Assembly (NCBI GenBank): GCA_022562795.1
Contig: JADFOP010000013.1
Coordinates: 1-47,637, forward strand
From: Nitrospinota bacterium
Lineage (GTDB): Bacteria > JADFOP01
DNA length: 47,637 bases
Reading direction: 5' to 3'
Of this stretch, positions 12,313 through 30,149 are shown one piece after another. The translations under genes and the position numbers were made by a program. Numbering within the stretch: the stretch's first letter is position 1; the number at the start of each line of letters is the position of its first letter. Under the pieces are notes generated by a model. The model did no database searches, was not told where the DNA came from, and saw only the letters and a program-made list of their open reading frames with translations.

Positions 12313-12341
12313 ATTATAAAAAGGCTCCAGGACCTTGTCAA
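12313..12341 (-). promoter_or_regulatory. Consensus sigma70 promoter of the S2P-trpS-ileS-lspA-rluD operon
   Basis: TTGACA (12341-12336), 17 bp, TATAAT (12318-12313) on the minus strand: both boxes match the consensus completely. The -35 box overlaps the last codons of the CCA gene. The predicted start is near 12306, about 35 nt before the first ATG. Confidence 0.85.
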
Positions 12342-15696: not shown

Positions 15697-16284
15697 ATGG
15701 AAGAGCGACCCGTCGGTGTGATTGCCCTCGCGGCCGTTTCCCTGGGTCTTTTCGCCACCTTCCTCGTCCCCTTCAACACGGACTTCAAGTACTCTCTCGT
15801 ATCCGGGTCTTCTAAGGGCTCCCCGGGGCTCATGGCCCAACCATCCCTGCTGACGTCGTGGCTCTATCCCCTGCTCGATACGGCCAAGATGCTCCATGAC
15901 GACCTCCAGATGCCGGTCGACCTGGCCCTTGAGACGGCCGCCAGCATCCACCGCCACACGCAAGCCACCCGCATCGCTCCCGAGCTGGTGGTGGCCCTCA
16001 TCCAGGTGGAAAGCGGCGGCGACCCAAGAGCGGTGAGCCCCAAGCAGGCCGTCGGGCTCATGCAGGTCCGCCATTCCGTGTGGGCCCAAACCCTTGGCGT
16101 CTCCTACAGGGAGCTCTTCGACATCGACACGAACATCCGGGCAGGCATCTACATCCTCAATTACTACCTGAAGCGCCACGAGACCATGACCGCCGCCCTG
16201 GCGGCTTACAGCGGCAATACCCGCTCCACGCGCTACCCCAAAAAGGTCTTGGCGACCTTCCGCGAGCTCGCCAGCGAGACTTAG
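15697..16284 (+). CDS. Lytic murein transglycosylase (SLT/GEWL fold)
   Basis: 195 residues. The N-terminus has one hydrophobic segment (residues about 5-22), so the protein is exported or membrane-anchored. The catalytic domain (about 80-190) shows VESGGDP with the catalytic Glu, AVGLMQV, and the late AYSGNT and Tyr-containing motifs of family 1 transglycosylases. It cleaves peptidoglycan between MurNAc and GlcNAc to form 1,6-anhydro ends. Its 9-nt distance from the vWA gene suggests the two proteins act together, for example opening the wall for a surface structure. Confidence 0.88.
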   Translation: MEERPVGVIALAAVSLGLFATFLVPFNTDFKYSLVSGSSKGSPGLMAQPSLLTSWLYPLLDTAKMLHDDLQMPVDLALETAASIHRHTQATRIAPELVVALIQVESGGDPRAVSPKQAVGLMQVRHSVWAQTLGVSYRELFDIDTNIRAGIYILNYYLKRHETMTAALAAYSGNTRSTRYPKKVLATFRELASET

Positions 16285-16434
16285 CCTCAAGCAGCGATGG
16301 GGTGAGTTGCCGCTCTCACGCAATCACCCGGTCTGGTTGAATTAGAATGTATTTTAGCTCGGTGGGGTCTAACGTACTGAAATAGCAGGCGGGAAAAATT
16401 ATTCGGAAAATCACGGAAAAAAAGAGAAAAAGGC

Positions 16435-16463
16435 TTGACAACCCAAGATGTAGTGGTTATTAT
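16435..16463 (+). promoter_or_regulatory. Strong sigma70 promoter pointing into the palindromic locus
   Basis: TTGACA (16435-16440), 17 bp, TATTAT (16458-16463). The predicted start is at about 16470, directly before the inverted repeat. The 150 nt before it (16285-16434) are AT-rich without a gene. Confidence 0.75.
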
Positions 16464-16469
16464 ATATAG

Positions 16470-16625
16470 AGAATACAACATACTGTGGCAGGGGACTCCC
16501 TCCATCATCCAACCGAAGAAGGTGCGCTTAAAGAAGGTTGAACTCCCACCCCCTGCCACAGTATTCATTTGACCGAGGGCAATTCCCAATTATACCCAGC
16601 CTGGTCGCCCTGTCAAGGGTTTTTT
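16470..16625 (+). ncRNA. Candidate structured noncoding RNA, unclassified
   Basis: A perfect 15-bp inverted repeat, ATACTGTGGCAGGGG (16480-16494) and its complement (16549-16563), encloses an internal loop and a second stem CAACC/GGTTG with a 21-nt apical loop. It is preceded by a strong promoter and followed by CCCT-GTCA-AGGG and six T (16608-16625), a weak terminator. No good reading frame is present. The closing stem, open bubble and inner stem vaguely recall 6S RNA but it is much shorter; I do not recognise SRP RNA, tmRNA or a known riboswitch. The opposite strand also has a promoter, so the real transcript may be antisense to this one. Confidence 0.55.
16589..16616 (-). promoter_or_regulatory. 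Consensus sigma70 promoter facing the palindromic locus from the right
   Basis: On the minus strand TTGACA (16616-16611), 16 bp, TATAAT (16594-16589), both boxes perfect. A transcript from about 16582 would read leftwards through the same inverted repeat and reach a T-rich stretch (minus strand, about 16434-16412). Confidence 0.7.
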
Positions 16626-16681
16626 CCACCGCTTCTCCACATCTTCTCGCCATTAATCATTAATCGTTCTTTTTCCACGCC

Positions 16682-16752: not shown

Positions 16753-17739
16753 ATGGCCGCTCTTGAGACGTGGGACGACCTCTCCGAGCTCAGCAGGGGC
16801 TTCATGGCCGCCAGGATTATCATTGCGGCCGCTGAGCTGGAAATTTTCGACCACCTTGAGGATGAAGGGGCGACGGCCGAGGAGGTGGCCGCAAGCTTCG
16901 GAGGTACGGATCGGGCCTACGTCATCGTCTTGAACGCCCTGGCTGCTCTCGGGGTAATCGAGAAACAGGACGGCCGCTACCGTAACACCCCTCTCACCCA
17001 GCGCCACCTAGTCACCACGAGCCCCCAGTACCGTGGCGACGGCCTGCGGATCCACAGCAACCTGTGGGATAGCTGGACCGGGCTCGAATCAATCCTTCGC
17101 GGCGAACCTTATGAAGCCCCCAAAATCATGGACGACCCGGAGCGGAATCGCCGTTTCACCCGGGCCATGCACGCCTACCACTTCGACGAGGCCGGCGAAA
17201 TCGCTCCCCTGCTCGGGCTGGAGCGAGCCACCTCAATGCTCGACCTGGGGGGCGGCGCGGCCAGCTACTCCATCGCATTCTGCCAGGCCTCCCCCTCTCT
17301 AAAGGCCGTGCTCATAGATCGGGCCCAGACCCTTGAGACGGCCAGTGAGTACGTGGAAGAGCACGGCATGAGCGAGCGGATTACGCTTCGGGGCGGCGAT
17401 TTTTACGAAGATGAGGCCTTTGACCTGGGCGGTCCATACGACTTCGTCTTCATCTCCAACGTTCTCCACATCGAGGACGAGGGGCGTAACCTCGCCCTTC
17501 TCGGCAGGGCCTTCGAGGCCACAACGCCCGGAGGCCGCATCGTCATCAACGAGGTCCCAATCAAGGAGAGTGGCGTTGAACCACTTTGGGGCGCAATCTT
17601 CGCCGTCAATATGCTGGTAGCCACCGACCGGGGCGACAGCTATCCCCAGTCCACCATGGGCTCTTGGCTCAAGGCCGCGGGCTGCACCCGCGTGGACTTC
17701 CTCACCGAGGCTCTCACCATCGGCCACAAGGGGCAGTAA
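16753..17739 (+). CDS. SAM-dependent O-methyltransferase (Methyltransf_2 type)
   Basis: 328 residues. The N-terminal winged-helix dimerisation domain (residues about 10-85, AAAELEIFDHL then EEVAASFGGTDRAYVIVLNAL) precedes a Rossmann methyltransferase with the SAM motif MLDLGGGAASY near residue 160, then PYDFVFISNVLH and GGRIVINE. The family includes small-molecule O-methyltransferases of quinone, pigment and polyketide pathways; no specific substrate can be read. GGAGG lies 10 nt before the ATG. The gene is monocistronic with its own promoter. Confidence 0.85.
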   Translation: MAALETWDDLSELSRGFMAARIIIAAAELEIFDHLEDEGATAEEVAASFGGTDRAYVIVLNALAALGVIEKQDGRYRNTPLTQRHLVTTSPQYRGDGLRIHSNLWDSWTGLESILRGEPYEAPKIMDDPERNRRFTRAMHAYHFDEAGEIAPLLGLERATSMLDLGGGAASYSIAFCQASPSLKAVLIDRAQTLETASEYVEEHGMSERITLRGGDFYEDEAFDLGGPYDFVFISNVLHIEDEGRNLALLGRAFEATTPGGRIVINEVPIKESGVEPLWGAIFAVNMLVATDRGDSYPQSTMGSWLKAAGCTRVDFLTEALTIGHKGQ

Positions 17740-30058: not shown

Positions 30059-30149
30059 CTATTTCGAAAAGGGCAAACTATCCGAAAGGGTAGGGCGCAA
30101 AGTCACCGGCCCTCGGCGTAGCGCCAGGGAAGCGGGACCGCCGAAATAG
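30059..30149 (+). promoter_or_regulatory. Cyclic di-GMP-I (GEMM) riboswitch aptamer
   Basis: Closing stem P1: CTATTTCG (30059-30066) with CGAAATAG (30142-30149). Inside it are GGGCAAAC, hairpin P2 CTATCC-GAAA-GGGTAG (30078-30093) with its GNRA tetraloop, the conserved GGGCGCAAAGTCACCGG, and a second arm ending GAAGCGGGACCGCCG. These match the c-di-GMP-I consensus in order and spacing. The intact GGG before CAAA favours c-di-GMP over the cGAMP-binding variant. It lies upstream of the receiver gene at 30272. Confidence 0.88.

Follow-up and report, generated by a model that had tools for sequence, protein, structure and literature searches.

Palindromic locus between two facing promoters

We analysed a 47,637-nt stretch of DNA (contig JADFOP010000013.1; hereafter the window) from a Nitrospinota bacterium whose genome assembly (G000) comprises 2.15 Mb and is 97% complete. 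The locus under study lies upstream of an O-methyltransferase-like gene (16753-17739); an SLT transglycosylase gene (15697-16284, + strand) adjoins the element, and genes for a CCA-adding-type enzyme and a VWA protein are further upstream neighbours. The initial annotation had described a perfect 15-bp inverted repeat with an inner stem, placed between a rightward and a leftward consensus promoter, and each of these features proved exact (Table 1). The rightward promoter matches the consensus at 11 of 12 positions and the leftward one at all 12. The repeat arms, ATACTGTGGCAGGGG and CCCCTGCCACAGTAT, are complementary at 15/15 positions and enclose a 55-nt spacer, within which CAACC (16510-16514) and GGTTG (16536-16540) form the inner stem. 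Among perfect inverted repeats of 13 bp or longer whose arms lie no more than 100 nt apart, it is the only one in the window; a 15-bp repeat of this kind is not expected by chance, since dinucleotide shuffling of the window (200 replicates) yielded 0.01 on average. Sites matching the promoter consensus at 11/12 or better comprised the facing pair and four others in the window, whereas shuffled sequences averaged 0.075, indicating that the canonical consensus is typical of this genome and not a product of chance. Further perfect (12/12) promoters of the form TTGACA-N17/18-TATAAT were found at 12341, 21526 and 43006 (-) of this GC-rich window.

The RNA predicted from the + strand would fold into one long hairpin with an internal bubble, and its fold energy was below that of shuffled sequences (z -3.8 to -5.8). 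Two near-identical C-rich motifs, ACUCCCUCC and ACUCCCACC, occupy opposite sides of the internal loop. In the predicted fold, the first is unpaired with a probability mostly >0.9 in relatives and 0.5-0.96 in the window copy, and the second is unpaired but for its last base.

Table 1. Features predicted at the locus (positions in the window)
Feature	Position	Strand	Basis
A-rich, UP-element-like tract just 5' of the + promoter	16404..16433	+	Sequence; A-rich in 4/4 copies; presumed role
Sigma-70-like promoter of the predicted sRNA, TTGACA-N17-TATTAT (TATCTT in relatives)	16435..16463	+	11/12 match; conservation
Predicted sRNA, ~103 nt, both ends estimated	16470..16572	+	Promoter position; stem-T7 in two copies; conservation
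Closing stem, 5' arm, 15 bp	16480..16494	+	Sequence; predicted fold
C-rich unpaired motif 1, ACUCCCUCC, anti-Shine-Dalgarno-like	16495..16503	+	Invariant in three copies
Inner stem CAACC/GGUUG with conserved terminal loop GAAGAAGGUGCGCUUAA	16510..16540	+	Conservation; predicted fold
C-rich unpaired motif 2, ACUCCCACC, last base already in the stem	16542..16550	+	Invariant in three copies
Closing stem, 3' arm; with the T tract, intrinsic terminator in relatives	16550..16564	+	
Eroded T tract TCATTTGA (TTTTTTGT / TTTTTTAT in relatives)	16565..16572	+	Comparison of copies
Possible back-up terminator GCCCTGTCAAGGGT-TTTTT	16607..16626	+	Sequence; not conserved in relatives
Antisense promoter TTGACA-N16-TATAAT	16589..16616	-	12/12 match; -35 invariant in three copies
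Predicted antisense RNA, fully complementary to the sRNA; estimated ends, the 3' end especially uncertain	16404..16582	-	Promoter position

Dispersed copies in one genus

The element occurs once in G000 and three times, at separate places, in G001, a Nitrospinae genome (85% complete) that was the sole other genome of the same genus compared. The three copies, C44, C674 and C477, are 86%, 83% and 89% identical to the window copy, respectively; C477 is cut by a contig end, and the contig carrying C674 corresponds to JALLOF010000070.1 (Nitrospinae bacterium AH_259_B05_G02_I21). A covariance search, which the initial annotation had proposed, returned homologues only in G000 and G001 among 290 genomes, with no matches in a genome of the same class (G002) or in the 287 more distant genomes. 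Matches of 26-35 bits on the - strand in G000 and G001 represent the palindrome itself. Plasmids gave no match to the element, and viral contigs gave none to its long sequence pattern. A Vibrio phage match covered only a 39-nt piece (82% identity, E 0.7) and was not convincing, and the single viral-contig match to a 19-mer had no stem, lay in an apparent coding frame and was taken as chance.

Stem conservation had also been put forward as a check, and the hairpin turned out to be nearly invariant compared with its coding neighbours. Across its 85 nt (16480-16564), one substitution and a 2-nt indel separate the window copy from C44, and two substitutions and the same indel separate it from C674; the invariant blocks are ACTCCCTCCATCAT, CAACCGAAGAAGGTGCGCTTAA and GGTTGAACTCCCAC. 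DNA identity between G000 and G001 was 76% for the O-methyltransferase-like gene, 74% for the VWA protein gene and 78% for the gene of the CCA-adding-type enzyme, and the intergenic flanks mostly could not be aligned. Of the 23 stem pairs, a single one is altered on one side only (C-G to U-G) and none on both sides; as the stems hardly vary among the three near-identical copies, compensatory changes are uninformative here.

Promoter, stem, loop and tail are kept together as a unit in the dispersed copies, which stand in differing gene contexts. C477 has the upstream neighbours of the window copy (CCA-adding-type enzyme and VWA protein) and C674 has its downstream one, so that, when the two genomes are compared, the locus comes apart at the element; copies may have recombined, or a fragmented assembly may have a gap there. 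The G001 stretches that were inspected yielded no SLT transglycosylase gene; among them was the interval from the VWA gene to the element at C477.

A predicted sRNA gene on the + strand

The -35 of the + promoter is invariant in all four copies, and the whole promoter is kept in 4/4. Its spacer (16441-16458) is unusually conserved, 14 of 17 positions being invariant in three copies, and contains a dyad, ACCCA-N8-TGGGT, in C44 and C477 that would fit the binding of a repressor or an activator within the promoter, between -35 and -10. Directly after the stem, C44 and C674 have T7 on the + strand, so that the stem constitutes an intrinsic terminator there. The window copy has no clean T run there; a hairpin followed by T5/6 lies 40 nt further on, and this tract is absent from the copies in the sister genome.

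The initial annotation had reported no ORF at the locus. In substance this holds, since no frame is conserved, but mechanical ORFs do exist: a 100-aa ORF with a TTG start at 16589-16287 (-) and a GTG ORF on the + strand from 16485. In the homologous copies these frames break, or change mostly by amino-acid-altering substitutions, and their lengths diverge; the 2-nt indel means that no conserved reading frame runs through the core. We also rejected a small peptide or type I toxin, there being no conserved short frame opposite the antisense RNA.

Rfam searches at the locus, both at the gathering threshold and with E up to 10, produced chance matches only, and no riboswitch family matched. Elsewhere in the window, a c-di-GMP-I-GGC riboswitch was detected above its gathering score (30063-30146, +; 64.9 bits). 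The reported lack of resemblance to 6S and SRP RNA was borne out by the covariance models. The locus resembles 6S RNA (RF00013) in being a long hairpin with an internal bubble but did not match that model, and the genome has its own 6S RNA (G000 C28:6771-6952; 107 bits). For SRP RNA (RF00169, RF01854), there was neither a covariance match nor a GGAAG..AGCAG core at the locus. As a separate observation, neither SRP RNA (small form, large form or core pattern) nor the Ffh M domain (PF02978) was matched anywhere in G000 (97% complete) or G001 (85% complete); G002 has both SRP RNA and Ffh, and Ffh was present in 14/14 control genomes. The genus may have lost the signal recognition particle, or the relevant sequence may be missing or masked.

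The predicted gene thus appears to stand alone, with its own promoter, its own intrinsic terminator (in C44 and C674) and no conserved frame. Very probably, the + strand of the element encodes a self-terminating regulatory RNA of ~100 nt that is dispersed in the genus. The earlier suggestion of an ncRNA absent from Rfam is well supported by conservation above that of the coding neighbours, by the dispersed units and by the stem-T7 terminator in relatives. The predicted sRNA matches no catalogued RNA family, and its mode of action is most likely that of known sRNAs.

A likely antisense partner

The initial annotation had also raised the possibility of a pair of complementary RNAs. The pair remains plausible, with an antisense -35 that is invariant in three copies; the antisense half is the weaker part, its -10 decaying from TATAAT in the window to TAGAAT and, in C44, TAGAGT. 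Only 8 of the 16 spacer positions of this promoter are invariant. Because half of the spacer has changed and the overlapping hairpin-T tract is not conserved, retention for a promoter role would be the simplest reason for the invariance of the -35. Judged on these sequences, an antisense promoter is probable in the window's genome and uncertain in C44. We found no recognised terminator for the antisense RNA in the sequence; a T-rich tract occupies 16404..16433 on the - strand, and the RNA might end there. At the presumed antisense start lies a GGG-AATT-CCC dyad (16577-16588; GGGCAATTCCC, GGGTAATTTCCC in relatives) that could be an operator. An sRNA gene with an antisense partner reading the opposite way is therefore likely, although less certain than the sRNA itself.

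Proposed mode of action

We propose that the + strand yields an autonomous sRNA that would act in trans through its C-rich motifs and be limited by the antisense RNA. RNA polymerase would start near 16470 and produce a ~100-nt RNA, closed by the 15-bp GC-rich stem, which together with a U tract would terminate transcription; in the window copy, where the U tract is eroded, the hairpin-T5/6 tract (Table 1) may take over. The closed hairpin would display the two C-rich single-stranded motifs across the internal loop, along with the conserved terminal hairpin. Most likely acting in trans, the motifs would pair with G-rich ribosome-binding sites on target mRNAs, thereby blocking translation. From the facing promoter, ~10 nt past the sRNA 3' end, a fully complementary RNA would be made, limiting the sRNA through duplex formation and cleavage, transcriptional interference, or both. 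We give this explanation as a whole about an even chance (roughly 0.5): its direct basis is the sequence, its conservation, the copies, the terminator in relatives and the predicted structure, from which transcription, Shine-Dalgarno pairing and antagonism are deduced. Going by the predicted fold and by analogy, ACUCCCUCC and ACUCCCACC would suit pairing to Shine-Dalgarno sequences, a proposal that is not specific, since many G-rich sites could accommodate a C-rich motif.

Known systems offer partial parallels. LhrC of Listeria monocytogenes is a multi-copy sRNA of 111-114 nt whose redundant C-rich (UCCC) motifs block ribosome-binding sites, and it acts independently of Hfq (PMC4132741). Hfq (PF17209) was not found in G000, which speaks against the proposal, but LhrC shows that Hfq is not always required. 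LhrC spreads three motifs over two loops and a linker, whereas the present locus has two that face each other in one internal loop; the locus also differs in its single copy in the window's genome and in its antisense promoter. The nearest functional parallel, with no sequence relation claimed, is CJnc190 of Campylobacter jejuni, whose C/U-rich loop blocks G-rich ribosome-binding sites and which has a fully complementary cis-encoded antagonist, CJnc180 (PMC8687705). Unlike that pair, the present element has dispersed copies and a stem that is its likely terminator. In Escherichia coli, SdsR and RyeA are mutually cis-encoded sRNAs with facing promoters and with reported mutual degradation and transcriptional interference (PMC6610125); one of their promoters is sigma-S dependent, whereas both promoters here are sigma-70-like.

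Alternative explanations

An unlikely but still appreciable alternative is that a protein binding the loop GAAGAAGGUGCGCUUAA and the internal bubble mediates the action of the sRNA in place of mRNA pairing, the C-rich bubble being part of the binding site. Invariance extends over the entire loop, beyond the C-rich motifs, and proteins commonly bind RNAs of this form, in which a long hairpin carries a bubble and a terminal loop. On the other hand, nothing at the locus matches 6S, SRP or another Rfam RNA, the genome has a 6S RNA elsewhere, and neither Hfq nor CsrA was matched; for CsrA (PF02599), neither G000 nor G001 gave a match, whereas G002 has it.

It is improbable that the - strand RNA, G-rich and transcribed from the strong 12/12 promoter of the window, is the effector and the + strand RNA its antisense. 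The + strand is favoured by the T7 after the stem in C44 and C674, by the retention of its promoter in all copies and by the C to T stem change in C674, which gives a U-G pair on the + strand but A-C on the -. In C44, a C/T difference next to the inner stem preserves - strand pairing, although it fits either strand. Against a - strand effector also stand its decaying -10 in relatives and its missing terminator. Because no CsrA was found in the two genomes of the genus, the - strand GGA motifs do not lend themselves to a CsrB-like interpretation, and a CsrA-sequestering RNA was rejected, one GGA having moreover been lost in C44.

About equally improbable is a palindromic, self-terminating sRNA that multiplies in genomes along with a convergent antisense promoter of its own, forming a sense-antisense unit of RNA only, free of any peptide and possibly addictive or selfish; its host lineage has no detectable Hfq (G000) or CsrA (G000, G001). 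Slightly less probable still is an RNA-only pair like SdsR/RyeA that resembles a toxin-antitoxin system: one RNA would be harmful when overproduced and its partner would neutralise it. The convergent RNAs would be fully complementary, such a pair has been reported in E. coli (PMC6610125), and one genome holds several copies, but the antisense promoter is not strongly conserved and no peptide was found.

We consider it doubtful that the element is non-transcribed DNA, whether a mobile palindromic (MITE-like) repeat or a site for recombination or protein binding. Its several copies in G001 and the split of the locus would agree with this, but G000 has a single copy, loop and bubble are conserved like the arms, promoter and terminator are kept alongside, and an unsystematic inspection noticed no terminal repeats or target duplications. 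Least likely, by a narrow step, is a cis-regulatory leader of the O-methyltransferase-like gene: that gene lies 3' of the element in both the window and C674, but the context of C44 is different and no notable + strand gene follows it directly, the stem and T7 would end transcription, and no riboswitch family matched.

Implications

The locus leaves general views unchanged. A literature search found no small-RNA work on the Nitrospinota-like lineage. If the proposed sRNA and its antagonist are real, they would add one more candidate to the sRNAs restrained by a cis-encoded antisense partner, and would give this poorly studied lineage an sRNA family that is confined to one genus and whose seed motifs can be tested.
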